37,755 bases of DNA, taken from contig JAQWKM010000090.1 in NCBI GenBank assembly GCA_029247845.1, positions 1 through 37,755 of the forward strand. The letters are read 5' to 3'. Below are positions 18,480-34,618 of the stretch, piece by piece (positions within the stretch are counted from its first letter, which is position 1; the number at the start of each line of letters is the position of its first letter). Below the pieces are notes generated by a model. It ran no database searches and was not told where the DNA came from. It saw only the letters and a list, made by a program, of their open reading frames with translations. The translations under genes were made by a program, and so were the position numbers. Source of the stretch: Paracoccaceae bacterium. Lineage in GTDB: Bacteria > Pseudomonadota > Alphaproteobacteria > Rhodobacterales > Rhodobacteraceae.

Positions 18480-18557
18480 AATCGGGAGAAACGTGACAAA
18501 CTCAGGATCCTTCGGTAAGGTGTACCCCTCAGAGCCAAGCAACTTTTTCACCCTATA

Positions 18558-19070
18558 TCAACTCAAGACTGAACCGTTCGGAAATTCATGATCATCTAAA
18601 GATTGTGGCTTCATTTCAATGCTGTAGCTAAGCGCTCGGGGCGGCATGTAACGCCCGTTTCTCATTAACACAGGCTCATAGAAATGTTCATGCAGATGAT
18701 CCACATATTCCACAACATTATCTTCCATCATACCCGAAATGCAGATGTAGTCGATCATTGCGAGATGTTGTACATATTCGCAGAGCCCCACGCCCCCGGC
18801 ATGCGGACGCACTTTGATATTGAACTTTGTAGCCATGAGTAAAACTGCGATGACGTCACTGACGCCGACCATTCCACAACTATCTATCTGACAAAACTCG
18901 ATTGCATCCGCCTGCATGAACTGCTTGAAAATAAATCTGTTTTGGCAAGCCTCACCTGTCGCAACGCCAATAAGAGCAACCGCACGGGCAATATTTGCGT
19001 GCCCCAGAGTATCGTCCGAGTTAGTCGGCTCCTCAATCCACCAAGAATAAACCTCTGTGAAACCTTGCAT
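18558..19070 (-). pseudogene. fucD: C-terminal fragment of L-fuconate dehydratase (enolase superfamily)
   Basis: This 170-codon frame encodes the C-terminal barrel half of an L-fuconate dehydratase: WWIEEPTNSDDTLGHANIAR, GVATGEACQNRFIFKQFMQA, AIEFCQIDSCGMVGVSDVIA, the catalytic-His segment RPHAGGVGLCEYVQHL, then SGMMEDNVVEYVDHLHEHFY and RYMPPRALSYSIEMKPQSL. Intact enzymes are about 430 residues. The whole N-terminal capping domain and the KxK catalytic Lys strand are missing, and the upstream 400 bases contain no trace of them. The fragment could not be active alone. It is a relic of the non-phosphorylative L-fucose pathway, whose upstream enzyme types (dehydrogenase, lactonase, mutarotase) survive 4-15 kb away. 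Confidence 0.8.
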
Positions 19071-19485: not shown

Positions 19486-20681
19486 ATGGATACCCAACAA
19501 CTTGCCGACGTAATCTTTAAAGACAGCTGGTGGACGATCCAGTGCATCAGGCAATCCTAATGAACGATGCGCGAAAACAATTCACAATCTTTGACAAGAG
19601 TTTAAGGGCCAATGGCGGCTTTGATGTAATAGACATCAATGGACCTGCTTTGCCGTGTGTAGGTTAAGAGCTGCATACGACAACACGGCTCATTTACTCA
19701 TATAGCCTAGGAATGGCGATTGAGCACCCACAGAGTGAGCGTATGATTGAAGCCGGCATTCGTATCTCTGGAATAAGCATCGCGATCAACAACACGGAGG
19801 GTTTTTCCGGTCCGTTGATGAGATGAATATATTAGACACCGTAAAACTTGCGTGTGGTCATGTCTTTGTCATGCTTGCCGCGTCGAGTGCCAAGCTCGCA
19901 AGCCACCCTGACGCCGACCATCTCCTTACATAGGTCACCGACATACTCGATAAACACTACTGGGAAGACCAAGTCAGTCTATATCGCGATAAGTTCACCC
20001 ATAACTGGTAACCAATTTCAACCTATCGCGGCATGAACGCAAACATGCATGCAGCCGAGTCGATGCTCGGCGCATTTGAAGCGACGGGAGAAACCTTGTG
20101 GCTGGATCGTGCTGGGCGCATCCTAGATTTCCTCACAAACCAGATCGTTCCAAAACATGAATGGCGGCTTCCAGAGGATTGGCAAGTTAATCCAGATTAT
20201 TCTGGTAATCCAATGTTTCGAACTATGAGGTGCACACCGGGGCATTCCATTGAACTCTCGGCTTATTCTTCAGCATTACGATCTGTCAGGTCACGGTGAT
20301 GCCACGGCGCTTACTCGGGCAAGTCCTTTGGTCATACAAGCTTTCAATGATGCCTGGCTTTCCAATAGCGGTCTCGCCTATACAACGCGGCAAGATGACA
20401 ACGTTGATATTGCAGATCGCTATTGGTGGCCCATGACTGAGGCGATCGGAGTTTTTGCCGACCTGCAAAAGCTTTATAAAAATCCAGAATTTGAAAGCCT
20501 ATACCGACAGACCTCGGCCTTCGCACACTCGCAGCTAATCTACCACGTAAATGGCGGTTGGTTTCGCGAGCTTGATATTAGTGGACAACCCTTGTCAAAA
20601 CAATTTTTGGGTAAACCTGATATATACCACTCGGTGCAGGCGACCCTCTTTCCCTTGGTGCCAAAATTTGTAACCGCATAA
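19486..20681 (+). pseudogene. decayed AGE-family sugar epimerase/isomerase
   Basis: The remains of an N-acylglucosamine 2-epimerase/YihS-type alpha6/alpha6-barrel enzyme. The start MDTQQLADVIFKDSWW is followed by a frameshift and then DDPVHQAILMND, FDKSLRANGGFDVIDINGPA, TAA, ELHTTTRLIYSYSLGMAIEH. Next come TVKLACGHVFVMLAASSAKL, TAG, ILDKHYWEDQVSLYRDKF, TAA, STYRGMNANMHAAESMLGAF, PGHSIELS, and after another shift LILQHYDLSGHG, YWWPMTEAIGVFADL and GKPDIYHSVQATLFPLVP. The conserved NANMH-x-x-E and PGH-x-x-E motifs identify the family. There are at least two frameshifts and three nonsense codons. The last piece (20250-20681) is open for 143 codons but would not fold as an enzyme. Confidence 0.8.
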
Positions 20682-21050: not shown

Positions 21051-22037
21051 ATGAATGAAAATGATATGCCTCGCTTTGCAGCTCGTCTCAATGCTTTCAA
21101 AATTGGTTCTGAGGCCTATTGGCCGGGACGGAATTCAATTACTACTGCTGATATTTTAGCGCGTGCAGCCACGGCTGGTTTGAATGCTGCCGATCTTAAT
21201 TATCCAGATCATTTTGTCGCCGAAAGCCCAATTGAGCTGCTACGCGCATTGAGTGATAACGGAATGATACTTAATGGTATAGCAATGCGATACTATACCG
21301 AACGTGGCTACAAACTTGGTGCATTCACTAATCCAGATCCATGTGTCAGGCGCGCCGCGATTGACGAAACAAAACGTGGCTTAGACGTCTTGGCGGAAAT
21401 GGGCGGTAACCTGATGACGCTTTGGATGGGGCAAGACGGATTTGATTATTCATTTCAGATGGATTACCAGCATGCGTGGTGCAACACAATTGATGCTATG
21501 ATTGAACTAGCAGAACACAACCCTGCAATCGATATTGCTTTAGAATATAAACCTAATGAGCCGCGGGCGTTTGCGTTGATGCCTGATGCGGCGACAACGC
21601 TATTGGCCATCAAGGAGATAGGGCGCGATAATACTGGTGTCACTTTAGATTTTGCTCATGTGCTGTATGCGGATGAAATGCCTGCCTTTGCTGCCGCCTT
21701 GATTGCACGACACTCGCGCATCCTAGGGGTGCATTTGAATGATGGTTACGGCAAGTGGGATAACGGATTGATGGTTGGTGCGGTGCATCCGATCCAAACG
21801 ATCGAATTGCTCATCGAGTTAGAGCGTTCGAACTATGATGGTACTATTTATTTTGACACTTTCCCCGACCATTCTGGCCTCGACCCTGTTGAAGAGGCGC
21901 GAACAAATATCGAGGTTTTACAACGGCTGCGTACGACGGCTTCCAAGCTGGTGGATAATGGCGAATTAAGAGCCGCAATTGCACGACAGGACGCGCCCAA
22001 CGCGATGCGCCTAGTTCAGTCAACAATGCTCGCATGA
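21051..22037 (+). CDS. sugar isomerase/epimerase, xylose-isomerase-like TIM barrel
   Basis: A 328-residue cytoplasmic protein of the AP-endonuclease-2/xylose isomerase-like TIM-barrel group, which includes L-rhamnose isomerase-type, tagatose epimerase-type and inosose enzymes. Metal- and substrate-binding features are visible: ALEYKPNEPR (Glu and Lys), GVTLDFAHVLYADE (Asp, His), GVHLNDGYGKWDNGL (His, Asp), and a C-terminal IYFDTFPDHSGLDPVEE. The set matches L-rhamnose-isomerase-related proteins of the RhaI type, so an aldose-ketose isomerisation of a deoxy- or pentose sugar is likely. Its stop overlaps the next gene, a PfkB kinase (ATGA), implying the kinase acts on its product. ATG 21051 has no strong ribosome binding site. 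Confidence 0.8.
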   Translation: MNENDMPRFAARLNAFKIGSEAYWPGRNSITTADILARAATAGLNAADLNYPDHFVAESPIELLRALSDNGMILNGIAMRYYTERGYKLGAFTNPDPCVRRAAIDETKRGLDVLAEMGGNLMTLWMGQDGFDYSFQMDYQHAWCNTIDAMIELAEHNPAIDIALEYKPNEPRAFALMPDAATTLLAIKEIGRDNTGVTLDFAHVLYADEMPAFAAALIARHSRILGVHLNDGYGKWDNGLMVGAVHPIQTIELLIELERSNYDGTIYFDTFPDHSGLDPVEEARTNIEVLQRLRTTASKLVDNGELRAAIARQDAPNAMRLVQSTMLA

Positions 22038-22879
22038 GCTTGTTAGTAGCAGGCTCACTGCATTTAGATGTCGTATTGTGCGCGCCGTATTTGCCGGGAC
22101 TTGATGAAACTGTGTCAGGTAGTTCAGTCAACTATGTATTCGGTGGGAAAGGCGGAAATCAGGCTATTTCTGCCGCGCGCATGGGAGCCAACGTGCATTT
22201 TGCGGGGCGCGCAGGCAGCGACCATTTTGGAGATATGATCCGCGAAACCCTGACGGCAAGTGGTGTAGAGGTATCACAATTGCAGCGTGATATAGGGCCC
22301 AGCGGAATGAGTACTGCTATCGTAGATGCTAATGGTGAATATGGTGCAGTGATCGTTTCAGCAGCCAATCTCAATATTGTGGCAAATGATATAATCATGC
22401 CGCAAGGGACATCGCTGGTCATTTTGCAAAATGAGATTCCCCAAGAGGTAAACTTGACGTTGGCCCAAAAGGCCAAGGCGGCTGGATCAGAGGTTTGGCT
22501 GAATGCTGCACCGGCGCGCGAGTTGCCAAAGCGCTTAGCTGAAGCGGTTGATTTACTGATTGTGAACCGAGTGGAGGCCGAATTCTACGCAAACTCACGA
22601 CCTACAAAAAACGTTTTAACAACACTTGGTGAGCGTGGTGTTTACTATAATGGTGTTCAGTATGCGGGATTTCCAGTTGATGTGGTCTCGACCCACGGGG
22701 CGGGGGATATGTTCGTTGGTACGCTGGCCGGGCAAGTGGTACGTGGTCAAACTATGGTCGATGCGATCAGGTTTGCGCAGGCAGCCGCCGCTTTGCATGT
22801 CTCCTGTCAAGTAGAGCAGCGCAAAGATCTAGGCCCTCAGTCCGTCAAAGCATTTTTAGCAGATCAAGACAGTCTGTAA
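22034..22879 (+). CDS. PfkB/ribokinase-family sugar kinase
   Basis: A 281-residue kinase. The N-terminal signature is FGGKGGNQAISAARMGANV (PfkB signature 1). Signature 2 reads THGAGDMFVGTLAG at residues 220-233, with His221 where most members have Thr and the catalytic Asp225 kept. A predicted substrate loop (LPGLDETVSGSSV) is present. It is slightly shorter than typical ribokinases (about 300-310 residues). It would phosphorylate a sugar, probably the ketose made by the isomerase whose gene overlaps its start by 4 bases. Its 3' end overlaps the convergent lactonase gene by 16 bases. Confidence 0.85.
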   Translation: MSLLVAGSLHLDVVLCAPYLPGLDETVSGSSVNYVFGGKGGNQAISAARMGANVHFAGRAGSDHFGDMIRETLTASGVEVSQLQRDIGPSGMSTAIVDANGEYGAVIVSAANLNIVANDIIMPQGTSLVILQNEIPQEVNLTLAQKAKAAGSEVWLNAAPARELPKRLAEAVDLLIVNRVEAEFYANSRPTKNVLTTLGERGVYYNGVQYAGFPVDVVSTHGAGDMFVGTLAGQVVRGQTMVDAIRFAQAAAALHVSCQVEQRKDLGPQSVKAFLADQDSL

Positions 22880-23730
22880 AATCTGGTAGCAGTGCCACCA
22901 AAAATTTCGGCACGCTCAGGCTTGGACAAGCCTTGCATTAAGTCCTGAGCGATGTCGTGCCAATCGCCGTATCCTGCCTGCAGACGGCAAACGGGCCAAT
23001 CTGATCCCCACATAATACGATTTGCGCCAAAGGCACTCAGAACATGCTCTGCGAAGGGACGTAAGTCGTTTATTGTCCAGCCGTCTCCAGCCTCAGTGAT
23101 AATTCCAGAAAATTTGCAAAAGCCGCGCGTCTCGTTAGCCAGTCGGGAGATATCATCGGCCCATCGCGAAAAAGCATCCTTACCTGCACGTTGATCATAA
23201 ATTTGTGGCTTCATGCAGTGATCGTAGACAGTGCGCATCTCAGGGTAATTCGTGACCAGTTTCAACAAATTGGGAAGGTGCATAGGAAAACCAAGTGCAT
23301 CAAATGTTATGTCCAAATTGATTATAGCGCGAAATGCCCATTGTACGTCCTGGCGGAGCATCCAGTTTACATCTGGAATATCTTGAATCATTGGCCGGAC
23401 ACCAAGAAACTTGGGATGTGCCGCAAACCGTTCCAGAATTGTAAGGTCGCTTGGGTTTTCAAAATTAATCCAGCCTACAACTCCTTTAATGGATGGCGTT
23501 GCATCGGCCAATCCTAGCATGTATTCAGTTTCCTGAGCGGTTGGTGCGGCTTGTACTACAACAGTGCCGTCGATGTCATACTTTTCCAAAGTTGGTTTAA
23601 GGTCAGATGGGGCATAAGGACGGTTCAAAATAAGGTTATCTCGCGGCATCCAATCGTAATCACCTCGCAGCGGTTGCCAAAAATGTTGGTGTGCGTCAAT
23701 TTTCAAATTGGATTTCAAGGCGAGGTTCAT
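22864..23730 (-). CDS. amidohydrolase-2 family sugar lactonase, L-fuconolactonase-like
   Basis: A 288-residue metal-dependent hydrolase. Motifs: KIDAHQHFW with His14 and His16; FFGV-like SIKGVVGWINFE; FLGVRPMIQD; the conserved CKFSGI strand; and the C-terminal metal Asp in IMWGSDWPVC. This pattern is shared with L-fucono-1,5-lactonase and L-rhamnonolactonase. I chose ATG 23730 because it overlaps the stop of the aldo/keto reductase gene (ATGA); the frame extends further upstream, but only within that gene. Dehydrogenase followed by lactonase is the classical first half of oxidative sugar breakdown. It would hydrolyse the lactone made by its partner to the aldonic acid. Confidence 0.8.
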   Translation of the reverse strand: MNLALKSNLKIDAHQHFWQPLRGDYDWMPRDNLILNRPYAPSDLKPTLEKYDIDGTVVVQAAPTAQETEYMLGLADATPSIKGVVGWINFENPSDLTILERFAAHPKFLGVRPMIQDIPDVNWMLRQDVQWAFRAIINLDITFDALGFPMHLPNLLKLVTNYPEMRTVYDHCMKPQIYDQRAGKDAFSRWADDISRLANETRGFCKFSGIITEAGDGWTINDLRPFAEHVLSAFGANRIMWGSDWPVCRLQAGYGDWHDIAQDLMQGLSKPERAEIFGGTATRFYRLS

Positions 23731-24755
23731 GTTGGAGCATCCTCGCGCATCAGACCTGCATCCTTCAAATCTAGCCAAAGTGATTTAGGGATATCTGCCT
23801 TTGCAGCTTGCAAATTTCCTGCCATTTCGGCCACTCCTTGCCCACCAGGTATCACAGCAACGTGGGCTGGATGCAAAAGCGGAAACTGGAAAGCAGCATC
23901 AACCATGCGAACTCCATGACCTGTGCAAACCTCTTCTATCGCGTTCACGCGCTCAATGATTTCTTGGGGAGCGGGACCGTAGTTGTAGAACGATCCAGGC
24001 TTTGCTCCTGTGGCTAGGATGCCCGAGTTATACGGACCACCCGTGATAATCCCAATTCCACGAGCCTCACAAAGCGGCAAAAAACTATCAAGCGCTTTTT
24101 GCTCTAATAGAGTATAGCGCCCTGCCAGCAGAAAGAGATCAAAATCACCACGCTCGGCTAGGGCTTGGCACACCTCCCACTCATTCACTCCACCGCCAAT
24201 CGCTTTTATAACCCTTTGATCACGCAAAGAGATCATTGCATCATAACCACGCCCACCAAAGAATTCTTCAACCCGCATATCCGAGGCGACTTTTGACCCA
24301 TGGGAAAACGCACAAAGGTCATGTACATAAAGAATATCGATCCGATCTACGCCAAGACGTGAAAATGAATGTTCAAAAGAACGCATAACGCCGTCATAGG
24401 TGTAGTCAAAATTCTCACGACGTTGTGGCACGTCAAACCATTTACCGACGCCTGCGCGGTGTTCTAGGCTGCAATATTCAATCAGACGGCCAACCTTACT
24501 AGATAAAATGTAACTGTCGCGCTGCTTGTCACGCAAAAACGAGTTCAAACGAGTTTCGGACAATCCCAGCCCGTAAAGTGGTGCGGTATCAAAATAGCGT
24601 ACCCCCCCTTCCCATGATGCATCAAGCGTTGCACGCGCCTCATCATCCGAAATCGCCTTGTATAGGTTACCCAATGGTGCCGTTCCAAAGCCCAATTCAG
24701 TAAATGTAAGACCGCCATTTCCAAGCCTGTCCCAGTGCCGTGTTTGTAACCCCAT
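23727..24755 (-). CDS. aldo/keto reductase, L-fucose / D-threo-aldose 1-dehydrogenase type
   Basis: A 342-residue NAD(P)-dependent oxidoreductase. The tetrad is visible: Asp56 and Tyr61 in YFDTAPLYG, Lys87 in ILSSKVG, and His in ILYVHDL. The C-terminal cofactor site includes PGGQGVAEMAGN. The sequence resembles D-threo-aldose 1-dehydrogenase (L-fucose dehydrogenase) and pyridoxal 4-dehydrogenase. A TTG at 24779 and an ATG at 24767 are in frame, but ATG 24755 has a GGAG 6 bases before it and gives the normal N-terminus (MGLQTRHWDRLGNGGL). Its stop overlaps the lactonase start. It likely oxidises the C1 of a 6-deoxy-sugar or pentose to its lactone. Confidence 0.8.
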   Translation of the reverse strand: MGLQTRHWDRLGNGGLTFTELGFGTAPLGNLYKAISDDEARATLDASWEGGVRYFDTAPLYGLGLSETRLNSFLRDKQRDSYILSSKVGRLIEYCSLEHRAGVGKWFDVPQRRENFDYTYDGVMRSFEHSFSRLGVDRIDILYVHDLCAFSHGSKVASDMRVEEFFGGRGYDAMISLRDQRVIKAIGGGVNEWEVCQALAERGDFDLFLLAGRYTLLEQKALDSFLPLCEARGIGIITGGPYNSGILATGAKPGSFYNYGPAPQEIIERVNAIEEVCTGHGVRMVDAAFQFPLLHPAHVAVIPGGQGVAEMAGNLQAAKADIPKSLWLDLKDAGLMREDAPT

Positions 24756-24797
24756 CCCGATCTCCATTAGTCGTGACAATAACTATGCCAATTTTGC

Positions 24798-24848: not shown

Positions 24849-25649
24849 ATGACCAAGAATTTCAAAAATGTCTTTGGGGAGATCAAACCAGTCATCGCTA
24901 TGGTTCATATTGGCGCGTTACCCGGATCACCACTTTTTGATCCAGCTTTTGATTTGGTTTCAAGCGCGCGCGCTGATCTGCTAGCTTTGCAAAAAGCAGG
25001 CGTTGACGGCTTGATGTTTGGCAATGAAAATGACCGCCCCTATGAGTTCGATGTCGACACAGTCTCAACCGCGACAATGGCGGCGATTATTGGACAGCTT
25101 AAATCTGAAATCACCGTGCCGTTCGGCGTCAATGTACTTTGGGATCCTATGGCAAGCATTGCATTGGGTGTGGCTACGGGCGCAGCTTTTGTGCGTGAAA
25201 TTTTCACCGGCACCTATGCATCTGATATGGGACCTTGGACACCTAATGCCGGACGGGCGATGCGATACCGTGATCGGTTGGGACGCTCTGATATGGCTAT
25301 GCTTTACAATGTTTGTGCTGAATTTGCACACTCGCTCGATCAACGCTCTCTGCCCGACCGTGCTCGCAGCGCCGTGTTTTCGTCAATCCCAGATGCCGTC
25401 CTAGTGTCGGGCCAGATCACCGGTGAGGCAGCGCCCCTATCTGATTTAGAGGCTGTGAAATCCGTGCTGCCTCAAACTGCTGTTATGGCAAATACTGGTG
25501 TAAAGCATGAGACCGTGGCAGACGTTTTGGCCATTGCAGACGGCTGCATCGTAGGATCATCTTTAAAGGTTGATGGAGATACGTGGAACAGTATCGACCC
25601 AGAGCGGGCTTTGGATTTTATGGACCGCGCGCGCGCGGCACGAAAATGA
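24849..25649 (+). CDS. BtpA/SgcQ-family TIM-barrel protein
   Basis: A 266-residue protein of the BtpA family (PF03437). Hallmarks: the initial IAMVHIGALPGSPLF, GVDGLMFGNENDRPY, PFGVNVLWDPMASIALG, GAAFVREIFTGTYASDMG, DAVLVSGQITGEAAPL, VMANTGVKHETVADVL and DGCIVGSSLKVDGDTW, which is a C-terminal phosphate-binding type GS loop. Despite the name (a cyanobacterial photosystem I biogenesis factor), proteobacterial members such as E. coli SgcQ sit in sugar operons and look like (beta/alpha)8 enzymes with a sugar-phosphate site. The gene has AAGGGAG about 9 bases upstream. It overlaps the next gene, an M42-type protein, by ATGA. This pairing repeats the sgcQ-sgcX association of E. coli, but here beside ABC genes, not PTS genes. 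The reaction is unknown. Confidence 0.8.
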   Translation: MTKNFKNVFGEIKPVIAMVHIGALPGSPLFDPAFDLVSSARADLLALQKAGVDGLMFGNENDRPYEFDVDTVSTATMAAIIGQLKSEITVPFGVNVLWDPMASIALGVATGAAFVREIFTGTYASDMGPWTPNAGRAMRYRDRLGRSDMAMLYNVCAEFAHSLDQRSLPDRARSAVFSSIPDAVLVSGQITGEAAPLSDLEAVKSVLPQTAVMANTGVKHETVADVLAIADGCIVGSSLKVDGDTWNSIDPERALDFMDRARAARK

Positions 25650-26740
25650 AAGACCGTATCAAGCGCGATTTAATGGATCTGATGAGGATACCAGGATTGT
25701 CTGGGCATGAGGACCGCGTGCGCCGGGATTTACGTAACCGGTTGGATGCAATTGGTGTTGAAAGTAGATCAGATCGTTTGGGTAATCTGGTTGCGCATTT
25801 TCCCGGTGATGGGCCACGGGTTATGCTGTTCACACATATGGATCAGCTAGGGTTCATCGTGCGCAAGATCGAGACAGATGGCCTCATCCGTTTGGAGCGG
25901 CTTGGGGGAGTACCGGAACGTGCATTGACCGCTCAAGACGTTTTGATTTGCGTTGGTAAAGGTAGGGATGTATCTGGTGTTATTGCCAATAAAAGCCACC
26001 ACGCAACCACTGCTTTGGAAAAATATCAGGTAACTCCCTATCCCGATCTTTATGTCGATACCGGCCTGTCGAGCGCAGCCGAGGTTGAGGCGGCGGGTAT
26101 CCTTATTGGTACGCCGGTCGTTTATGCGCCTCAAGCCAAAGCGTTTAGCGATGATTTTATTTGTGGAACCAGTGTTGATGACCGTGCCGGCTGTGCTGTT
26201 TTGCTTGAGGTCGCGCGTCTCTTAAAAAACCGGACAAGTGGTCCCCCCATAGATTTAGCTTTCACGGTACTTGAAGAGTTCAACCTTCGCGGTGCCCTGC
26301 CGCTAGCTCAGAAGCTGCTACCTGACATTGCGATTCAGCTTGATTTGATGCTTGCAACCGACACGCCGGATATGGGAGCGCGCGGGGAAATGGTGTTAGG
26401 TGGCGGTCCAGGGATGAGCCTATATTCCTTCCACGGACGAGGTACACTTAACGGGGTGATTCCACATCCGGCGTTGGTTGATCTGTTTGAGCGAGCCGCT
26501 AATGCTGAAAATATTCCTTTACAGCGTAGTGCCCAAGTAGGGATATTGACGGACCTATCGTATGTGCAAATGGTTGGCGAAGGTGTGGCCTCTATCGATA
26601 TGGGGTTTCCGATGCGGTATTCCCACTCGGCGCGAGAGCTTTGCAATTTGGAGGATTTAGTTTCACTTGCCAGGTTGTTGGAGGCCGCTCTTGGTCATAT
26701 CGGGCCAAAGTTTTCTTTAAACCGGGATGATTACACTTAA
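25646..26740 (+). CDS. M42-family metallo-aminopeptidase-like protein (SgcX/FrvX type)
   Basis: A 364-residue cytoplasmic protein of peptidase family M42. Metal ligands are present: His64 and Asp66 in FTHMDQLGFI, Asp in SVDDRAG, Glu-Glu in VLEEFNLRGA (peptidases usually read EEVGxRGA), Asp in ATDTPDMG, and His in YSHSARE. So it should bind two metals and be active. I chose ATG 25646 because it overlaps the BtpA-family stop (ATGA); an in-frame ATG at 25583 lies inside that gene. Relatives SgcX, FrvX and YpdE occur in sugar operons, so the substrate may be an amide-linked or glycosyl-amino acid compound, or a sugar derivative, not a peptide. The next gene, an FGGY kinase, starts on the last base of its stop. 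Confidence 0.8.
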   Translation: MKDRIKRDLMDLMRIPGLSGHEDRVRRDLRNRLDAIGVESRSDRLGNLVAHFPGDGPRVMLFTHMDQLGFIVRKIETDGLIRLERLGGVPERALTAQDVLICVGKGRDVSGVIANKSHHATTALEKYQVTPYPDLYVDTGLSSAAEVEAAGILIGTPVVYAPQAKAFSDDFICGTSVDDRAGCAVLLEVARLLKNRTSGPPIDLAFTVLEEFNLRGALPLAQKLLPDIAIQLDLMLATDTPDMGARGEMVLGGGPGMSLYSFHGRGTLNGVIPHPALVDLFERAANAENIPLQRSAQVGILTDLSYVQMVGEGVASIDMGFPMRYSHSARELCNLEDLVSLARLLEAALGHIGPKFSLNRDDYT

Positions 26741-28227
26741 TGACATACACACTTGGAATTGATATCGGGACCTATGAGACCAAAGGCGTTTTGGTGGACC
26801 AAACTGGTGCGATCCATGCTCAAGCAGCGCGTGGCCACAAAATGCAGGTGCCCAAACCTGGCTGGGCAGAGCACAGTCCTGAGCAAGACTGGTGGGGTGA
26901 TTTTGTCTTTATTTGCAAAACGCTATTAAGCGAAAGTGGTGTTGATGCATCTCAGATCAAGGCAGTTGCATGCAGTGCGATTGGTCCATGTATGCTTCCG
27001 GTGGATGCAAGCGGCAATCCGTTGATGAACGCTGTCTTGTATGGCGTTGATGGACGTGCTGAAGCCGAAGTGCGCGAACTCACAACGCGCATCAGTGAAG
27101 AGACAATAATAGCGCGCTGTGGCAATGCGCTGACATCGCAATCTGTTGGGCCGAAAATACTTTGGCTTAAGCGGCAGAGACCTAAAATATATTCAGAAAC
27201 ATCCCATATTTTGAGCTCAACTAGCTTCATTGTCATGCGCCTCACAGGTGAAGTAGTGATTGATCATTATACAGCAGCTAATTTCTCACCACTTTATGAT
27301 ATCACAAAACAGGCATGGGTGGATGATCTGGCTGACGATATTTTGCCACTCAAAAAACTGCCGCGATTGATGTGGTCGGGCGAAATTGCCGGCCACATTA
27401 CCAAAGAAGCTGGGCAGATGACTGGCCTTGCGTTTGGCACCCCTGTTACCGTGGGCACTATAGACGCTGCTGCAGAAGCACTTTCTGTCGGCACAGATAC
27501 TTATGGCGATATGATGATGATGTATGGCTCAACTATTTTTATCATTCTAAAAGCTCACTCTATGGTGACTGATCCCCGAATTTGGTATGCACCTTGGTTA
27601 TTTGAAGGCGAGCATGCATCCATGGCGGGGCTTGCTACTTCCGGTACTCTGACCCATTGGTTTCGGGACCAAATCGCGCGCGATCACTCGGTTCAGGATG
27701 CGTTCCCTGCCTTGGCTGAAGAAGCGGCCAAATCGCCGCCTGGCGCCAACGGTCTGTTGATGCTTCCATATTTTTCAGGCGAGCGGACGCCTCTTCATGA
27801 TGTTAATGCGAAGGGCGCCATGTTCGGATTTAACCTAACCCATACACGTGGAGATATGTACCGCGCGTTAATCGAAGGAATTGCCCACGGCACACGACAC
27901 GTGACTGATACTTTTGCGGAGCTGGACCAAGCCCCCAGGAGATTACTTTCAGTTGGTGGGGGAACTAAAAATAGTCTTTGGCTGCAAGCAACATCAGATA
28001 TTACTGGCATTGACCAAATTGTGTGTGAAAAAACAACTGGTGCCAGTTATGGCGACGCATTTTTAGCGGCTATGGCCGTCGGGTTAGCAGATCGAGCAGA
28101 TATCGCGCTGTGGAACCCTATAGTAAAGACAATAACTGCTCGGCCAAACGCCGTCTATGAAAAAGCACACGGCTTGTTCCGCAGGCTTTACGAACAGACC
28201 AAAGATATTGCTTCAGAGCTTACTTAA
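26740..28227 (+). CDS. FGGY-family carbohydrate kinase
   Basis: A 495-residue sugar kinase with both FGGY domains. The N-terminal ATP site is LGIDIGTYETKGVLVD (DIGT at residues 8-11). The catalytic Asp lies in GTIDAAAEALSVG. The FGGY signature region is MYRALIEGIAHGTRHVTD, and the adenosine motif is SVGGGTKNSLWLQATSDITG. It resembles xylulokinase-like members, but the substrate (xylulose, ribulose, fuculose, erythritol or other) cannot be read from sequence. The ATG overlaps the last base of the upstream stop (TAATG), so the three genes form a tight operon. Its 3' end overlaps the convergent permease gene by 8 bases. Confidence 0.85.
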   Translation: MTYTLGIDIGTYETKGVLVDQTGAIHAQAARGHKMQVPKPGWAEHSPEQDWWGDFVFICKTLLSESGVDASQIKAVACSAIGPCMLPVDASGNPLMNAVLYGVDGRAEAEVRELTTRISEETIIARCGNALTSQSVGPKILWLKRQRPKIYSETSHILSSTSFIVMRLTGEVVIDHYTAANFSPLYDITKQAWVDDLADDILPLKKLPRLMWSGEIAGHITKEAGQMTGLAFGTPVTVGTIDAAAEALSVGTDTYGDMMMMYGSTIFIILKAHSMVTDPRIWYAPWLFEGEHASMAGLATSGTLTHWFRDQIARDHSVQDAFPALAEEAAKSPPGANGLLMLPYFSGERTPLHDVNAKGAMFGFNLTHTRGDMYRALIEGIAHGTRHVTDTFAELDQAPRRLLSVGGGTKNSLWLQATSDITGIDQIVCEKTTGASYGDAFLAAMAVGLADRADIALWNPIVKTITARPNAVYEKAHGLFRRLYEQTKDIASELT

Positions 28228-29134
28228 CTGCACCCGCCGCCATGCCCTTAATTATGTACTTCTCAAGCGCGATTGCTACTATCACCAAGGGAAGTATTGC
28301 GGCTGAAGATAGTGCCGCCATGGACCACCAGTTGATCCCCTGCGACCCAGTTTGAGACGCAACCATGACTGGCAGTGTCGTGGCATTAGTCGAGGTTAGC
28401 AGTGCGGCAAAGAAGTATTCGTTCCAGCACAATACCAGCGATAAGATAAAGGCTGCGACCATACCGGGCAGCGCTATAGGCATCACGATCTGCATGAATG
28501 CCCCCCAGATACCAAGGCCGTCTACAAGTGCAGCCTCTTCCAACTCTATTGGTATACCTTGAAACTGATCGCGCATAATCCAGATCACAATTGGCAGAAC
28601 CATTAAAGTATAAAGCAAAATCAATCCAATGCGGCTGTCAAGCAGTCCCAAAGATTTGTATAAAACAAGGAATGGCAAGGCCAGAACTACAGGTGGCAGG
28701 ATCATTTGGCTAAGGAAAAAAAACGATATGTCAGAATTTTTCATAAAACCAAACCGGTAGCTGAATCGCGACAGACCGTAAGCGGCGAGTGATCCTAATA
28801 TAACTGCGAGCAGCGAAGCAGAAATTGAGACCACAGCGCTATTCCAAAAGCGTTTAAAGAATTCCTCTCTGACGGTTGAGACCTCTCCAATCAATCTGGG
28901 GGAGAGTCCAATAGATTCCCAACCCTTCCATCTTGGTGTAAAATCCCACCACGGGATCAGGTTGCCCTTCATGACATCAGGGGCCAGTTTGAACGATGTC
29001 GTGATGGTCCAGAAAATTGGAAATAGGCAAACCACCGCCCATATTGATAGGGTCATGTAAATTGCGGTACGGCTAGCCCACCATTTGGTTTGGACACGCA
29101 GGCCTGCTTCGTGGTCTTTGAAAATCACACTCAT
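28220..29134 (-). CDS. ABC sugar transporter permease (MalG type)
   Basis: A 304-residue inner-membrane protein with about six transmembrane segments and the EAA loop (ELEEAALVDGLGIWGAFMQI...PIALPG) that docks onto the ATPase. Start ATG 29134 overlaps the stop of the other permease gene (ATGA); a longer in-frame start at 29152 lies inside that gene. It forms a heterodimer with the MalF-type permease encoded just upstream. It is the last gene of the binding protein-permease-permease operon. Confidence 0.88.
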   Translation of the reverse strand: MSVIFKDHEAGLRVQTKWWASRTAIYMTLSIWAVVCLFPIFWTITTSFKLAPDVMKGNLIPWWDFTPRWKGWESIGLSPRLIGEVSTVREEFFKRFWNSAVVSISASLLAVILGSLAAYGLSRFSYRFGFMKNSDISFFFLSQMILPPVVLALPFLVLYKSLGLLDSRIGLILLYTLMVLPIVIWIMRDQFQGIPIELEEAALVDGLGIWGAFMQIVMPIALPGMVAAFILSLVLCWNEYFFAALLTSTNATTLPVMVASQTGSQGINWWSMAALSSAAILPLVIVAIALEKYIIKGMAAGAVK

Positions 29135-30234
29135 GCCGGCCGCTCCATCCATCGGCTTACCAGCTTTAAAAAAAGGGTCACGAAGATCACAATAAGAACC
29201 AGATAAACCATTGCGAGCAATGTACCGTAGCCCACGTTTGAGCGGTCTCTGTATTCGCGGAAGATAAAGCTAGTAACACTGTCAGTCGCCCCGCCTGGCC
29301 CACCAGAGGTTACGTTGATAATGATATCAGCGAGCTTAAGTTTAAAAATAATCCGGATTACTACGGCTGTGACCGAAACCGGCAACATCAGTGGGAAGAT
29401 AATTTCCTTAAAGCTTTGCCAGCCAGATGCACCATCAACTTTTGAAGCTTCAAGAACTTCACTCGGCATCGCCTGAAGACCCGCCAAAAGCATTATCATA
29501 ATAAAGGGAATAAATGTCCAGGCATCCATCGCCATGATCATAAAACGCGCTATTTCCGGATCGCCAAAGAACGTTGGCTCGCCCCCAAGGTCGCGGATAA
29601 TGCGAGAGATTGGGCCAAAGCGAACCTCAAGCATGGATTTGCCAATCATCCATGACACGGCTACCGGGCTGAGCATTAGAGGCAGCAGGAAAACTACACG
29701 GAAAAACTTACGCGCTCTAATTTGCGCATTCAGCAAAAGAGCTAATCCAAATGCAATAACGTATTCCACGCTTACGGCTAGCACATAGTAAACCATATTC
29801 GTCAACGCGTTCCAGTAAAAGCTGTCGTTCCACATCTGCACAAGATTATCCCAACCATTGGGCTGTGGCCCGTTTGGCGACGCAAGATTCCAATCGGTAA
29901 AGGAGATATAAAGCGCAAAAAGAAGTGGAAAGACAACAAGACTTATCACAAAGAGCGCAGCTGGTAGCACAAAAAGAGTGCGCTTGCCTTTCTCTCCATT
30001 CACAATGACCTGTGCAGCACAAAGAGCAGTTGCCCAAAGCATATAAGCGTAGAGAATTGGGCGCCAAGTTTCAAAACCAATGCCAATGCTCCCAGCCTGA
30101 TAAATGGCCTGCAGTAGGGCAAGCATCACGCAAAACAATGCGGTGCCCCAGACCATTAACTTGCCAAGACGCTTGCGGCTGTCTGAAATATTGTCGGCAG
30201 TCACCGTATGTAGAAGGTCACCATCTGTGTTCAT
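29131..30234 (-). CDS. ABC sugar transporter permease (MalF type)
   Basis: A 367-residue inner-membrane permease with about eight hydrophobic segments. It is longer than the usual 300-residue form because of extra N-terminal helices (LMVWGTALFCVMLALLQAIY and a second pair). The EAA loop reads LEASKVDGASGWQSFKEIIF. It pairs with the MalG-type permease whose gene overlaps its stop. It lies 124 bases after the binding-protein gene, with a stem-loop in the gap. Confidence 0.88.
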   Translation of the reverse strand: MNTDGDLLHTVTADNISDSRKRLGKLMVWGTALFCVMLALLQAIYQAGSIGIGFETWRPILYAYMLWATALCAAQVIVNGEKGKRTLFVLPAALFVISLVVFPLLFALYISFTDWNLASPNGPQPNGWDNLVQMWNDSFYWNALTNMVYYVLAVSVEYVIAFGLALLLNAQIRARKFFRVVFLLPLMLSPVAVSWMIGKSMLEVRFGPISRIIRDLGGEPTFFGDPEIARFMIMAMDAWTFIPFIMIMLLAGLQAMPSEVLEASKVDGASGWQSFKEIIFPLMLPVSVTAVVIRIIFKLKLADIIINVTSGGPGGATDSVTSFIFREYRDRSNVGYGTLLAMVYLVLIVIFVTLFLKLVSRWMERPA

Positions 30235-30300
30235 ATTCGGTCTCTAGCAAGATGAGAGATGTCTGCAATGGGGTTAGTCACGCAACTCTTAAGGATATCC

Positions 30301-30338
30301 AATTATTAAAAACAGGCGGCGTCCAAGCACCACCTGTT
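30301..30338 (-). terminator. stem-loop after the binding-protein gene (partial terminator or mRNA stabiliser)
   Basis: Read on the minus strand, AACAGGTGGTG (30338-30328) pairs with CGCCGCCTGTT (30321-30311). This gives an 11-bp stem with two G-U pairs and a 6-base loop, followed by TTTAATAATT. It lies 21 bases after the solute-binding protein stop, inside the operon. Such elements commonly let the binding protein be made in excess over the permeases. Confidence 0.6.
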
Positions 30339-30358
30339 CCAAGTTCATCGCATCACAA

Positions 30359-31984
30359 TCACATGCCAAGCGACGCTTTGTACACAGTAATCTGGCTGTC
30401 ACGGCCAATCTGGTCGGTGATCTTTTCCCAAGCTGCCGCAATGGCATCTGCTGTTTCTTGCGCGGAGCCATATTGACCAGCATAACCCTTAGCCAACTCG
30501 TCTTCCGCCACAGAATAGTATTGAAAAATACCCGGGATGCGTGGTTCGATCGCTGCATTAGGATGGTTGTAGCTGTCTGCGTTAGAACCAAGATAATCCT
30601 CAACATATGCGCGGTCGTAACCTGCTTCTTCCCACTCGTCATACTGGAAATGTGAGTTGCGGTAAGGCTGGAACCCTGATGGATAAGCAGAGGCCCAAAG
30701 CGAAAGGTCCTTGCCCCCAAGGTGGGCTGCAGCAGACCATGCCGCTTTTTTCTTCTTCTCGTCGCCTTCAACTGTAGCCATGACGTATACGCCCCAGCCA
30801 ATATACGCCATATTTGGTGCTTCGTTTCTGGTCTCCTCCCAAGCGCCAGCTTTTGCGTTATAGACACGTTCGGAGGCCGGATTTACTCCAAACCCTGCAA
30901 CATCACCAACAACTGATGTATCGGATGTTCGTGCGTTAGAGCCCACATCGCCCCACCACATTAGCATAGAACCAGTGCCAGCAAGAAACTGTTGGAACGC
31001 CGTCGTACCAGGGTCTGCGTTAATTTGGTCGGTGGGGTATGCGCCCGCATCAATCAAATCCATAACGTCTTGGATAGCTTGGACCCAAGCCGGATTATTG
31101 ACCATCGGCTTCATTGTATCTGGCTCAAACAGCCATGCTGGACTATTTGGATGCTTGGCATAGGCTGATGCGCGATTTTCAAGGAAGTAGAAGCCAAAGC
31201 CCCCCCAACCCTTGAGCGGATCAAGATAGCCATGCGCTGGAAGTCCAGTAAGGGGGTCTTCTTTACCAATTAGGTCCTTAGACACTTCGTTAATCTCTTG
31301 CCAAGTCGTGGGAACATCGCGCCCAGTAACTGAGCCTTCGCCGAAGTAATCTTTGCGGTAAGCGAACGTATGGCAATCGCCATCAATTGAGACACGATAT
31401 GTTTTTCCACCCCATGTACCAACTGGAGCTTTTAGGTAATCCACATAGTCATCCATATCGATCTGTTCTTTGACCCATTGAGGCATTTCTGAGGCCATAC
31501 CCTTGCCAAGAACATCTCCCTCGAAAGGAGCTCCCATCTCGATGATATCAAAATCAGCAGTGCCCGTCGCGATTGATTGTTGAAGTCGAGCATTATAATC
31601 CGCTTGTGCTAGATCGATCCAATTGATCTTCGCTCCGGTGTACGCCTCCCAAGGCTTCAAGAACCCTCGGAACAGGAAGTTGTGCAGGTTTTGGTTGTTC
31701 AATCCCATAAAGGTCAACTCAACCCCTTCAAACTCACCCTCACCGACGTTACCTTTGGTCGCTCCAAGGCACATTTCACCAACTTTTTGCCAATCGCTGT
31801 CGGTGGGAGATCCTGCACCAACGCCAGGAATTTTTAGGATTTCAGCCCGAACATTTCCATGCCCGTCTGCCAATGCCGCTTTGGGCATCATCGCAACGGC
31901 TCCAATTGCTGCAGAACCTTTTAGAACCTGACGTCGATTCATTTTCTGCGCAGCTTTTATGTAATTATAAAGGTCGACTTTCAT
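30359..31984 (-). CDS. ABC sugar-binding protein, Tat-exported
   Basis: A 541-residue periplasmic solute-binding protein (family 1). The N-terminus has a 16-residue leader followed by a twin-arginine signal, MNRRQVLKGSAAIGAVAMMP, and an ALA cleavage site. Domain features are GVELTFMGLNNQNLHNFLFRG, FLKPWEAYTGAKINWI, DFDIIEMGAPFEGDVLGKGM, YRVSIDGDCHTFAYRKDYFG and a long Trp-rich second lobe. At 541 residues it is larger than most sugar-binding proteins (about 400-430). The start is set by GGGAGG 6 bases before ATG 31984; the frame is open upstream to 32005. Export through Tat suggests folding or metal or cofactor binding before export. It is first in its operon. Confidence 0.88.
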   Translation of the reverse strand: MKVDLYNYIKAAQKMNRRQVLKGSAAIGAVAMMPKAALADGHGNVRAEILKIPGVGAGSPTDSDWQKVGEMCLGATKGNVGEGEFEGVELTFMGLNNQNLHNFLFRGFLKPWEAYTGAKINWIDLAQADYNARLQQSIATGTADFDIIEMGAPFEGDVLGKGMASEMPQWVKEQIDMDDYVDYLKAPVGTWGGKTYRVSIDGDCHTFAYRKDYFGEGSVTGRDVPTTWQEINEVSKDLIGKEDPLTGLPAHGYLDPLKGWGGFGFYFLENRASAYAKHPNSPAWLFEPDTMKPMVNNPAWVQAIQDVMDLIDAGAYPTDQINADPGTTAFQQFLAGTGSMLMWWGDVGSNARTSDTSVVGDVAGFGVNPASERVYNAKAGAWEETRNEAPNMAYIGWGVYVMATVEGDEKKKKAAWSAAAHLGGKDLSLWASAYPSGFQPYRNSHFQYDEWEEAGYDRAYVEDYLGSNADSYNHPNAAIEPRIPGIFQYYSVAEDELAKGYAGQYGSAQETADAIAAAWEKITDQIGRDSQITVYKASLGM

Positions 31985-32097
31985 GTTAATCCTCCCAAGA
32001 ATCATCTTAATCGATTATAAGCAAGAAACGGACGAGCGCCGAATTTAAGTAGTTATTTTAGTGCTCTACGCACTGGCAGTCCTTCCGTATCAAAATT

Positions 32098-32198: not shown

Positions 32199-33236
32199 AT
32201 GGCAAACGTCAAGATACAAGAAATTCGAAAGTCTTATGGCAACTTGGAGGTGATCCACGGACTGAACATTGAAATTAAGGATGGTGAGTTCGTAGCCCTA
32301 GTTGGACCGTCTGGCTGTGGGAAATCCACATTGCTCAGGATGATCGCGGGTTTGGAGCCTATCGACAGCGGGAACATCGCAATTGGCGAGCGTGCAGTGA
32401 ACAATCTTCCCCCCTCTGAGCGCGACATTGCAATGGTGTTTCAGACTTATGCTTTGTACCCGCATAAAACGGTTGCAGAAAATATGGGCTTTGCGCTTAA
32501 GGTCGCAAAAACTAGTAAATCTGAGATTGATCGCCGAGTAAAAGAAGCCGCTGAAATTCTCAGCCTGACAGGGTATTTGGACCGGAAGCCACGCCATTTA
32601 TCCGGTGGTCAGCGCCAGCGTGTTGCAATGGGCCGCGCGATCGTTCGTGATCCTCAGGTATTCCTGTTTGACGAACCACTATCTAATCTTGACGCCAAGC
32701 TGCGCATTCAGATGCGTACTGAAATCAAAGAATTACATCAGCGCTTAAAGACCACGACGGTCTTTGTGACACACGACCAGATTGAAGCAATGACATTGGC
32801 AGATAGGATTGTGGTGATGCAGGGGGGGCGCATAGAGCAGATTGGCACACCGCTTGAGCTTTATGATCATCCAGCCAATGAATTCGTCGCAACATTCATC
32901 GGTGCGCCATCGATGAACCTGCTTGATGGCATTCTGTCTGACGGTAATGTACGTATTGGGGAGCAATTTTTTGCCGGTCCAAACGGGACTGATAGGGTTA
33001 AGCTTGGTGTCAGGCCAGAGCATCTGATTTTGGCTGAAGAAGGCGGTCTGCCTATGCAGGTCAAAGTTGTTGAACCAACCGGGGCAGAAACGATGGTTTA
33101 TTTGAGTTATGAAGGTCAAGACGTCACGGCTGTATTCCGAGAACGTCATACTTTTGAAAGTGGCCAAACGATCCATCTCAAGCCGGACCGAGACCATCTT
33201 CATATATTCGATGCAAAGACCGGTGCGCGAGTTTAA
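32199..33236 (+). CDS. ABC sugar transporter ATPase (UgpC/MalK type)
   Basis: A 345-residue ATP-binding subunit. Walker A is GPSGCGKST (residues 36-44), Q-loop MVFQTYALYPH, signature LSGGQRQRVAMGRA, Walker B VFLFDEPLSNLDAKLR, and His switch VFVTHDQIEAMTLADR. A C-terminal TOBE-like regulatory domain (VKLGVRPEHL onward) is present. It is transcribed away from the binding protein and permeases, heading a second unit with the mutarotase and kinase. A strong GGGAGG precedes the ATG. It very likely energises the importer encoded on the opposite strand, since no other permease pair is near. Confidence 0.92.
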   Translation: MANVKIQEIRKSYGNLEVIHGLNIEIKDGEFVALVGPSGCGKSTLLRMIAGLEPIDSGNIAIGERAVNNLPPSERDIAMVFQTYALYPHKTVAENMGFALKVAKTSKSEIDRRVKEAAEILSLTGYLDRKPRHLSGGQRQRVAMGRAIVRDPQVFLFDEPLSNLDAKLRIQMRTEIKELHQRLKTTTVFVTHDQIEAMTLADRIVVMQGGRIEQIGTPLELYDHPANEFVATFIGAPSMNLLDGILSDGNVRIGEQFFAGPNGTDRVKLGVRPEHLILAEEGGLPMQVKVVEPTGAETMVYLSYEGQDVTAVFRERHTFESGQTIHLKPDRDHLHIFDAKTGARV

Positions 33237-33257: not shown

Positions 33258-33704
33258 ATGCTTAGAGGAATAGATCCAATTTTGAATGCTGACGTTCTGT
33301 ATGCATTGCGCGCGATGGGACATGGCGATGATTTGATCATTGCCGATACAAATTTTCCGTCCGACAGTATTGCACGCGAAACCGTGTTGGGAGATGTCCT
33401 GCGGATAGACCGCAGCGCTGCTGAAGTTATCAGGGCTGTTCTTTCGGTTTACCCAATTGACACATTTGTGGATGATGCCGCTGCCAGAATCGAAGTGGTC
33501 GGAGAGTCTGACAAGATCCTACCTGTGATGCAGGAGGCTCAAGTCCAAGTGAGTGCAGTAAACGGCCCTAAGTTGATCGGTATCGAACGTTTCGCTTTTT
33601 ACGACCGTGCAAAGAAAGCCTATGCGGTGATCCAAACTGGTGAGCCACGTTTTTATGGCTGCTTTGCCTTTCGCAAGGGCGTCATTCCGCCGGATCAGGC
33701 CTAA
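33258..33704 (+). CDS. fucU: RbsD/FucU-family sugar mutarotase, closest to FucU
   Basis: A 148-residue protein of the RbsD/FucU family, which interconverts the anomers of L-fucose or ribose. The catalytic His22 lies in AMGHGDDLIIADTNFP and the second site in FYDRAKKAYAVIQTGE. Tyr133 is kept, but the family Asn two residues later (usual YGN or YAN) is Cys135 here (FYGCFAFRKGV). FucU-type length and the FYDRAK block favour FucU over RbsD. It lies 21 bases after the ATPase gene with AGGAG before its ATG, and 2 bases before the kinase. It would feed the correct anomer to a dehydrogenase, isomerase or kinase of the locus. Confidence 0.8.
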   Translation: MLRGIDPILNADVLYALRAMGHGDDLIIADTNFPSDSIARETVLGDVLRIDRSAAEVIRAVLSVYPIDTFVDDAAARIEVVGESDKILPVMQEAQVQVSAVNGPKLIGIERFAFYDRAKKAYAVIQTGEPRFYGCFAFRKGVIPPDQA

Positions 33705-33706
33705 CC

Positions 33707-34618
33707 ATGGGAAAGGTTGTTGTCCTAGGGGTGTTTGTTGCTGATACCGCTTATCGCGCGGCGCGGATGCCAAATATGGGAGAGACCATCATGGGTACCT
33801 CTTTTGCTCTTGGTCCTGGTGGAAAAGGCTCGAATCAGGCTGTTGCCTGTGCCCGTATGGGTGCTGAAACCCATTTGATTACAAAGCTGGGCCAAGACGA
33901 TTTTGCTAAACTAGCGCTTGGTACTTGGGAGCAGGCAGGGGTTATCCCGCATGTAGAGCAAGTCAGTGACAGTTATACAGGCGCGGCTCACATCTTCATT
34001 GAAGACGCCACAGGTGATAACGCTATTATCGTCGCACCAGGGGCAGCAGCATTAATTGATATTGCAGATATCGAGGCCCATGCCGCGTTGATCGCGGACG
34101 CAGATGTCTTTGTAACGCAACTTGAGCAGCCGATGGCCGCGGCCATGCGAGGGCTGGAAATTGCACGTGCAGCCGGCGTGACCACAGTACTCAACCCTGC
34201 GCCGGCGGCAGTCTTGCCGCACGGCATGCTAGCCCTATGCGATTACGTAACCCCGAATGAAACTGAGTGCGAAGCTTTAACTGGTATTGCCGTGCAGACA
34301 CAGACACAAGCAAAACAAGCGTGTAACGCTTTGCGCGATCTTGGCGTTGGAACCCCGATAATTACCATGGGAGACCAAGGGGCATTTTTATATGGTCACG
34401 GGCTTGTGCCAGCGGTGGGCGCAGGTGCCGTTATTGAGACAACTGGTGCGGGAGACGCATTTAACGGTGGTTTTGCTGCAGTTTTGGCTGAAAAAAAATC
34501 TTCTTTAGAGGCTGCACGCTATGGATGTGCAACAGCAGGTATCTCCGTAACGAAAGCCGGAACAGCACCCGCAATGCCTAGTAGAGACATGGTAGACGCT
34601 TTGATCAGATTGATCTAA
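33707..34618 (+). CDS. rbsK: ribokinase-like PfkB kinase
   Basis: A 303-residue sugar kinase with full ribokinase signatures: PGGKGSNQAVACARMGAE near residue 38, NPAPAAVLP, PNETECEALTG, and ETTGAGDAFNGGFAAVL with the catalytic Asp. It is the second PfkB kinase of the locus and more canonical than the one at 22034. The gap to the mutarotase gene is only 2 bases, so it is co-translated. The substrate is probably ribose or a related sugar, but an RbsK name is only family-level. Confidence 0.82.
   Translation: MGKVVVLGVFVADTAYRAARMPNMGETIMGTSFALGPGGKGSNQAVACARMGAETHLITKLGQDDFAKLALGTWEQAGVIPHVEQVSDSYTGAAHIFIEDATGDNAIIVAPGAAALIDIADIEAHAALIADADVFVTQLEQPMAAAMRGLEIARAAGVTTVLNPAPAAVLPHGMLALCDYVTPNETECEALTGIAVQTQTQAKQACNALRDLGVGTPIITMGDQGAFLYGHGLVPAVGAGAVIETTGAGDAFNGGFAAVLAEKKSSLEAARYGCATAGISVTKAGTAPAMPSRDMVDALIRLI

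Follow-up and report, generated by a model that had tools for sequence, protein, structure and literature searches.

The 37,755-nucleotide stretch of DNA analysed here (contig JAQWKM010000090.1 of a Paracoccaceae bacterium, from a genome of 2.6 Mb that is 76% complete; hereafter the window) carries on its plus strand three overlapping genes, which encode a TIM barrel of the BtpA/SgcQ family that is predicted to be a phosphosugar enzyme (24849-25649), an M42 metallohydrolase of the SgcX type (25646-26740) and an FGGY carbohydrate kinase (26740-28227). SgcQ and SgcX are products of the sgc locus of Escherichia coli and Salmonella. A preliminary description, made from the sequence alone, had taken this triad for a likely undescribed sugar-modifying unit, and we found no account of it in our searches of open-licence PubMed Central papers. 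The coordinates given there are confirmed: each open reading frame (ORF) is intact, BtpA and M42 overlap by ATGA at 25646-25649, and M42 and FGGY overlap by TAATG at 26738-26742. The three family calls, and the metal ligands said to be kept in M42, are likewise borne out, all three proteins passing their Pfam cut-offs by a wide margin. We show below that this gene order is conserved and that the M42 proteins linked to BtpA share an altered active site with SgcX.

The triad is likely to be its own transcription unit, because the genes on either side lie on the other strand. Downstream, genes for an ATP-binding cassette (ABC) importer (28220-32005) adjoin it on the minus strand and run towards it, while upstream, about 70 bases away between ORF edges, an aldo/keto reductase-lactonase pair (22864-24779) points away from it. 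Importer and triad are therefore probably on different transcripts.

A contig scan of genomes yielded 318 BtpA relatives, and our locus counts use the best 80 of these 318. The order BtpA-M42-FGGY is kept in 71 of the 80 loci, so that other strains have the triad too and its arrangement is not due to chance. In 70 of these 71 loci neighbouring genes lie at most 400 bases apart between ORF edges, and the other (L079) contains a gap of roughly 1 kb. FGGY is missing after BtpA-M42 in five loci (L030, L036, L037, L042 and L044), where an ABC ATPase gene follows instead; a PfkB gene is present in four of these stretches, the remaining one, L030, being a contig of 5 kb. Three loci end at a contig edge (L029, L046 and L068), and one, L047, has BtpA-FGGY without M42. 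FGGY is thus dispensable within the unit, and the more constant core is BtpA, an SgcX-type M42 and some sugar kinase. The view of three genes as the unit was right about the order and too narrow in what it took in.

We also examined 390 genomes from the window's order. A BtpA over the cut-off is present in 70, and in 39, counting the window's own, the next gene on that strand behind BtpA encodes an M42; the Pfam matches of the two are 129-247 bases apart, edge to edge, and in one of the 39 (G531) BtpA is a fragment only. Judged by their record titles, carriers are mostly Rhodobacterales- and Rhizobiales-type alphaproteobacteria, with some Granulosicoccaceae, which are gammaproteobacteria; named carriers include Tateyamaria omphalii KCTC 12333 (L012), Litoreibacter meonggei DSM 29466 (L021) and Hoeflea olei JC234 (L053). 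The wider neighbourhood is conserved as well. Counting only full-length loci, of at least 20.7 kb, we found an ABC binding-protein or permease gene in 45 of 49, an isomerase, PfkB or RbsD/FucU gene likewise in 45, the aldo/keto reductase in 38 and the lactonase in 33. The preliminary description had the triad occurring with an ABC importer; the importer does adjoin it here and in most full-length neighbourhoods, but on the opposite strand and in convergent orientation. Two clusters have lost their own BtpA, which is absent between reductase and M42 in L256 and reduced to about its first 73 residues in L257. Both genomes hold another full BtpA elsewhere (G467 C16 and C5; G531 C2:598991), and these two cases, few as they are, suggest that the cell still requires the function of BtpA and that a copy at another place in the genome can provide it.

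An altered M42 active site, a predicted BtpA barrel and the kinase

The M42 protein matches Pfam PF05343 (Peptidase_M42) with 234.3 bits (cut-off 23.2) and keeps H64, D66, D178, E210, E211, D239 and H327, which we take to be its metal and catalytic residues; in our alignment all seven positions are kept in every BtpA-linked row. Two features set the linked proteins apart. A near-universal Gly beside a metal ligand is replaced by Asn, mostly as EEFNLRG, and a loop, HGRGTL, is inserted. In the window the alignment places the Asn213 codon, where the usual Gly of EExGxRG would be, at 26282-26284 and the loop at 26432-26449, both on the plus strand. Among 111 BtpA-linked or sgc rows (79 named, the window among them, 28 further and four sgc), all have the exact HGRGTL, 109 have Asn and two have Ser, the signature having been defined on part of the rows used to count it. 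Among 44 unlinked M42 rows, HGRGTL occurs in none, Gly in 43 and Ser in one (L115); 42 have no inserted loop, and L115 and L235 have other residues there. These unlinked rows include duplicates (L167 = L251, L169 = L252) and many close relatives from the window's order (among L186-L215); L083 was not counted with them, being the same gene as L147 (G272), a window-type locus. Across all collected loci, HGRGTL was found in 117, every one a window-type cluster or an sgc locus.

The window M42 scores 165 bits with PRK09961, 138 with PRK09864, 143 with the lysyl and 110 with the glutamyl aminopeptidase model, under the equivalog cut-offs of 412-700, and with blastp it finds SgcX at 233 bits, FrvX at 152 and YpdE at 114. 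The ABC-type BtpA-linked M42s form one branch of the M42 tree (38 rows, support 100/99). Only 13 of 142 genomes in the class have an M42 of at least 170 bits, which argues that it is not a housekeeping enzyme here. In E. coli K-12 the genes sgcX, frvX and ypdE (L232, L233 and L234) each adjoin genes of a phosphotransferase system (PTS), which hints at a wider link between M42 proteins and sugars.

BtpA matches Pfam PF03437 with 242.7 bits (cut-off 30) and TIGR00259 with 244.8 bits (cut-off 153.4), and no solved structure was matched by sequence search at E 1. An AlphaFold2 model built from 55 sequences (mean pLDDT 88, pTM 0.89) has among its closest solved folds TrpF, the N-(5'-phosphoribosyl)anthranilate isomerase, TrpA (tryptophan synthase alpha), HisF, RPE (ribulose-phosphate epimerase) and ThiE (thiamin phosphate synthase). 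Foldseek matches TrpF 4aaj with probability 1.00 (E 2.3e-8), and VIA-align superposes the model on MJ1099 (4rc1, with phosphoribosyl pyrophosphate) with a Z of 19.6 and a root-mean-square deviation of 2.8 over 209 aligned positions. Many rows are tied in these comparisons, dihydropteroate synthases and aldolases among them, so that the matches indicate the superfamily and not the reaction. We predict that BtpA is a phosphate-binding TIM barrel, its closest folds being mostly phosphosugar or phosphoribosyl barrels. Nine residues are the same in all 31 diverse members that we compared (H20, P25, G26, N59, P64, G93, R116, G128 and G217). Three of them, H20, N59 and R116, map in the model to the C-terminal ends of barrel strands or close by, the usual place of TIM-barrel active sites. 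The family is present in bacteria, cyanobacteria and archaea, and no member was found in viral contigs or phage records. The annotation of E. coli K-12 SgcQ calls it a putative nucleoside triphosphatase; Pfam recognises only BtpA in this protein, and the open-licence PubMed Central literature searched holds no enzymatic role for the family.

The kinase passes the Pfam cut-offs of FGGY_N (154.6 bits) and FGGY_C (99 bits), and the Asp within its motif GTIDAAAEALSVG, at 239, is presumably the catalytic base. Its best NCBIfam model is xylulokinase TIGR01312 (281.1 bits, under the cut-off of 380.25), and its nearest solved structures are 3ifr, an FGGY protein without assigned substrate, at 225 bits and then xylulose kinase 2itm at 152 bits. 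From these matches a ketopentose is a plausible substrate.

Flanking genes and other BtpA loci

The triad is embedded in a set of sugar-related genes that recur with it. Upstream on the plus strand lie a xylose isomerase-like TIM barrel (21051-22037; Pfam AP_endonuc_2, 193.5 bits to 3ktc, in 50 of the 80 loci) and a first PfkB, ribokinase-like kinase recognised by profile matches (22034-22879; 40 of 80). These are followed on the minus strand by an amidohydrolase resembling sugar lactonases (22864-23778; 41 of 80), which scores 210.8 bits with the L-fucono-1,5-lactonase model, below its cut-off of 400, and by the aldo/keto reductase (23727-24779; Pfam, 55 of 80), which resembles sugar dehydrogenases, diverges from BtpA and has L-galactose dehydrogenase 9w6y as its closest solved structure (104 bits). 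Although reductase and lactonase would fit an oxidation of L-fucose or L-galactose, we rejected this as the role of the triad, because the triad occurs without both genes (for example in L031, L062 and L069) and because the dehydratase beside the cluster in the window is broken. That remnant, of an enolase-superfamily dehydratase (MR_MLE_C, 96 bits), lies at 18279-19070 on the minus strand, and a second broken remnant, of a GlcNAc 2-epimerase-family gene (74 bits), at 19848-20681 on the plus strand. A homologue of the broken dehydratase adjoins the cluster in L063.

Downstream, the minus strand carries two ABC importer permease ORFs, at 28220-29152 (homologues in 63 of 80 loci) and 29131-30234 (62 of 80), which we take to be of the MalG and MalF type, respectively, and a solute-binding protein with a Tat signal (30359-32005; SBP_bac_1 37.9 bits, TAT_signal 26.2 bits). 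On the plus strand follow a candidate for the importer ATPase (32199-33236; ORF with homologues in 50 of 80), an assignment that we assume, a member of the RbsD/FucU mutarotase family (33258-33704; Pfam 115.8 bits, 52 of 80) and a second PfkB kinase (33707-34618; 40 of 80), whose 284.8 bits with the ribokinase-like model TIGR02152 fall just below the cut-off of 299.65. No solved structure was matched by the solute-binding protein in a sequence search at E 1e-5, and its model (mean pLDDT 73) resembles sugar- and glycoside-binding proteins in general. We discarded the attempt to read a ligand class from this model, as the proteins that VIA ranks within 1 Z unit have very different sugars as ligands. 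The neighbours of window-type loci also include an amidase (L065) and a creatininase-family gene (a cluster of 15 loci).

Outside the 80 loci we compared 39 further BtpA loci, from 12 plasmid records and 27 genome stretches; three of the latter (L147, L245 and L248) are window-type loci, and L160, in which BLAST finds no BtpA, was excluded. An FGGY or PfkB sugar kinase is present in the cassette in 30 of these 39 loci and a PTS in three, giving 33 of 39 with either, although the loci are related to one another and the counts are not independent. The kinase count comprises 25 found at a first pass with a 6 kb limit and five found on a second look, which covered five loci and ten chosen proteins and did not revisit first-pass positives: L103 and L104, where FGGY lies just beyond 6 kb, L158 and L164, where PfkB adjoins BtpA, and L246, where it is one gene off. 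Neither kinase nor PTS was found in L112, L114, L159, L161, L162 and L249 (6 of 39), the stretches of L159 and L162 being incomplete. By a rough estimate a random gene lies within 6 kb of a PfkB or FGGY gene about 5% of the time; the source genome has 10 such genes, three of them in this cluster. The suggestion of the preliminary description that FGGY could provide the phosphate that a PTS would otherwise deliver thus holds up as a proposal from gene content, given that a kinase or PTS mostly accompanies BtpA. In L249 (G467, C16), an SgcQ-like BtpA lies near a DeoR regulator, a thiamine-pyrophosphate enzyme and an iron alcohol dehydrogenase, and a kinase was found neither by BLAST nor among the three neighbours scanned.

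We distinguish four types of cassette under labels of our own. Type I is BtpA-M42-FGGY-ABC, as in the window; type II is BtpA-FGGY-SDR-DeoR-ABC, where SDR stands for a short-chain dehydrogenase/reductase, sometimes with a HAD gene; type III is BtpA-PfkB with a varying set of phosphotriesterase-like, glutamine amidotransferase, TenA and M20 or Zn-hydrolase genes and mostly another type of ABC importer; and type IV is sgc. In the BtpA tree types III and sgc are separate, whereas type II cassettes fall between the window group and sgc, and those of Shinella (L103) and Labrenzia (L104) are nested inside the window's clade. M42 must therefore have been lost or gained more than once, and plain co-inheritance of BtpA and M42 is only partly borne out. 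Type III cassettes apparently represent a second uncharacterised BtpA pathway; with a ribokinase-type kinase they recur in L111, L113, L163, L165, L243 and L244. The isochorismatase-family gene of the Labrenzia region lies within a siderophore cluster.

Amide-acting genes occur in six of the 10 plasmid BtpA regions without M42, the regions being 19-29 kb wide and the count made without a chance control. They are an amidase (L106), gamma-glutamyltransferases (L107 and L108), a PIG-L deacetylase (L114) and M20/ArgE deacylases or a Zn-hydrolase (L113 and L111), and we regard them as a lead. L107 and L108 are Rhizobium plasmids in which BtpA-FGGY lies near a questin oxidase-family gene as well as the gamma-glutamyltransferase, and L107 also has an 8-oxoguanine deaminase gene.

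A proposed pathway and its alternatives

In the reading that we consider best, and to which we assign a probability of roughly 0.4, a sugar conjugate with an amide- or N-linked group is taken up, hydrolysed by M42, phosphorylated by FGGY and converted as a phosphosugar by BtpA. The triad would then supply the central enzymes of a conserved locus for catabolism, in which the lactose/maltose-type ABC importer would bring in the conjugate and the SgcX-type M42 would hydrolyse the amide- or N-linked group off it. FGGY would phosphorylate the sugar, probably a ketose, a step that may fall to a ribokinase-type kinase in the relatives without FGGY and to the PTS in E. coli, and BtpA would isomerise or cleave the phosphosugar. 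From there the carbon could pass to central pathways through the isomerase, the mutarotase, the ribokinases and the dehydrogenase-lactonase pair encoded nearby. Our data show the conserved genes and their order, a predicted barrel fold, the signature of M42 and a kinase or PTS as frequent companion; the amide chemistry, the sequence in which the enzymes act, what BtpA catalyses and the substrate class are what we infer. An amide- or N-linked conjugate is proposed because amide-acting genes recur where M42 is absent and because characterised M42 enzymes are reported to cleave aminoacyl amides and not cellulose (PMC3511314). Purine genes in some of the regions without M42 leave room for a nucleoside-type compound. 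The preliminary description had BtpA and M42 acting on a sugar phosphate or phosphorylated conjugate; this is partly supported, by the modelled phosphate-binding barrel and the company of kinases or a PTS, and it is the best available frame.

Several observations weigh against this reading. The amide idea comes only from the chemistry of the M42 family and from neighbouring genes, and no shared operator was found that would join the promoters of the cluster, the divergent promoters included. Type II cassettes have no M42, even where their BtpA is nested in the window's clade, so that M42 chemistry is not always needed with a window-type BtpA. The unlinked M42 of Deinococcus (L115) is as similar to the window M42 (234 bits) as SgcX is (233 bits), and a free tree puts it inside the combined group of linked and sgc M42s (support 96/81). 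In a second free tree the starred branches force two changes, and only 2% of bootstrap trees unite the ABC-linked and sgc M42s, although a tree that makes them a single clade is 3.2 log units worse, a difference that falls short of rejection (p-AU 0.133).

The alternative that survives best, unlikely but to be taken seriously, is a plain ketose or polyol pathway, in which FGGY would phosphorylate a ketose, BtpA would act as an epimerase or aldolase and the altered M42 would have lost its amidase chemistry and hydrolyse another bond, such as an ester, a lactone or a glycosylamine. Type II cassettes, which pair BtpA and FGGY with an SDR, fit this well, since SDR plus FGGY is the classic polyol-ketose-kinase layout, as do the best score of the kinase with the xylulokinase model, its best named solved relative, a xylulose kinase, and the altered active site of M42 itself. 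Against it stand the seven metal and catalytic residues, which no linked M42 has lost, and the amide-acting genes of other kinds found repeatedly around BtpA in regions that lack M42.

Catabolism of a nucleoside or other N-glycoside, with a ribose-like sugar and a nucleobase or ureide as leaving group, is in our judgement improbable. In its favour are the two ribokinase-like kinases and the RbsD/FucU gene around the triad and, in the vicinity of some type II and III cassettes, genes for 8-oxoguanine deaminase, allophanate hydrolase, HpxZ, AtzE, isochorismatase or XdhC; in addition, a 2026 E. coli study reports that sgc is induced on a subset of nitrogen-containing substrates and with the accumulation of hypoxanthine (PMC13343008). 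Against this, the authors of that study allow that the induction may be a general marker of slow growth. Furthermore, the annotation tables of the Shinella, Labrenzia and Thermus cassettes, incomplete as they are, list no gene of purine catabolism next to the cassette, and there is none among the few window-type neighbours that are annotated.

Peptide scavenging, in which M42 would be an ordinary aminopeptidase merely travelling with sugar genes, strikes us as quite improbable. It draws on the reported aminopeptidase activity of the characterised M42 enzymes (PMC3511314) and on the surroundings of L115, the closest M42 without BtpA, which lies on a Deinococcus peraridilitoris plasmid beside dipeptide epimerase, NlpC/P60 and dipeptide-type ABC genes. 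It does not account for the distinct signature and position common to the linked M42s, for the PTS genes beside each of sgcX, frvX and ypdE, or for the scarcity of such M42s in the class. Finally, that BtpA is an assembly or regulatory factor, as described for its cyanobacterial namesake, and not an enzyme can be largely set aside: NCBIfam NF045918 does name the cyanobacterial-type equivalog a photosystem I biogenesis protein, but the window BtpA reaches 154.3 bits against its cut-off of 400, and nine residues are invariant across the family members compared, with H20, N59 and R116 placed by the model at or close to strand ends.

Comparison with known systems

BtpA has its predicted fold in common with TrpF, HisF, RPE, ThiE and MJ1099, with a sequence identity of only 8-20%. 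The M42 protein shares family and metal ligands with the M42 (TET) aminopeptidases; in contrast, YpdE, FrvX and two solved M42s have Gly at the position of Asn213 and no HGRGTL, CelM and TmPep1050 standing outside this sequence comparison. In annotation, the signature of Asn plus HGRGTL could tell BtpA-linked M42s from ordinary peptidases. The type II cassettes of Rhizobium, Salipiger, Shinella, Labrenzia and Thermus have BtpA, FGGY and a lactose-type ABC importer in common with the window but an SDR instead of M42; their FGGY is only 30-33% identical, and a HAD gene is present in Salipiger, Shinella and Labrenzia.

The closest known system is the sgc locus (sgcXBCQAER), to which the preliminary description had already drawn a parallel. 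The likeness is stronger than was claimed there, since SgcX carries the same Asn and HGRGTL signature as the window M42, to which it is 35% identical; SgcQ is 46% identical to the window BtpA. The triad is a new variant of a known but uncharacterised pairing of sgcQ and sgcX. In the 2026 study the substrate and functions of sgc are given as unestablished, and sgc mutants show no growth defect (PMC13343008); the operon is weakly bound and repressed by SlyA, according to another report (PMC5797941). In cultured bacteria that have names, the window-type locus comes with an importer, a kinase and downstream enzymes; it offers more clues to the substrate, and the ABC-type version makes the questions of the role of BtpA and of the sgc substrate testable.

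Since the linked M42s and SgcX share the altered active site, BtpA and M42 probably form one module that works with PTS and ABC uptake alike. A broader proposal, which we hold to be doubtful, is that BtpA plus the SgcX-type M42 form a transferable module for a class of amide- or N-linked sugars outside the described pathways, joined to a PTS in enterobacteria and to an ABC importer and FGGY in alphaproteobacteria, with BtpA as a new phosphosugar lyase or isomerase and the SgcX-type M42 as a sugar-amide hydrolase rather than a peptidase. The two settings differ in what surrounds the pair. In sgc the M42 gene comes first, and sgcB and sgcC lie between sgcX and sgcQ; SgcA, SgcB, SgcC and SgcE have no tblastn match across the whole window at E 1e-3, whereas SgcQ and SgcX do match. 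The sgc locus combines the pair with a PTS and a ribulose-phosphate epimerase-like gene, whereas the window combines it with an ABC importer, FGGY and ribokinases.

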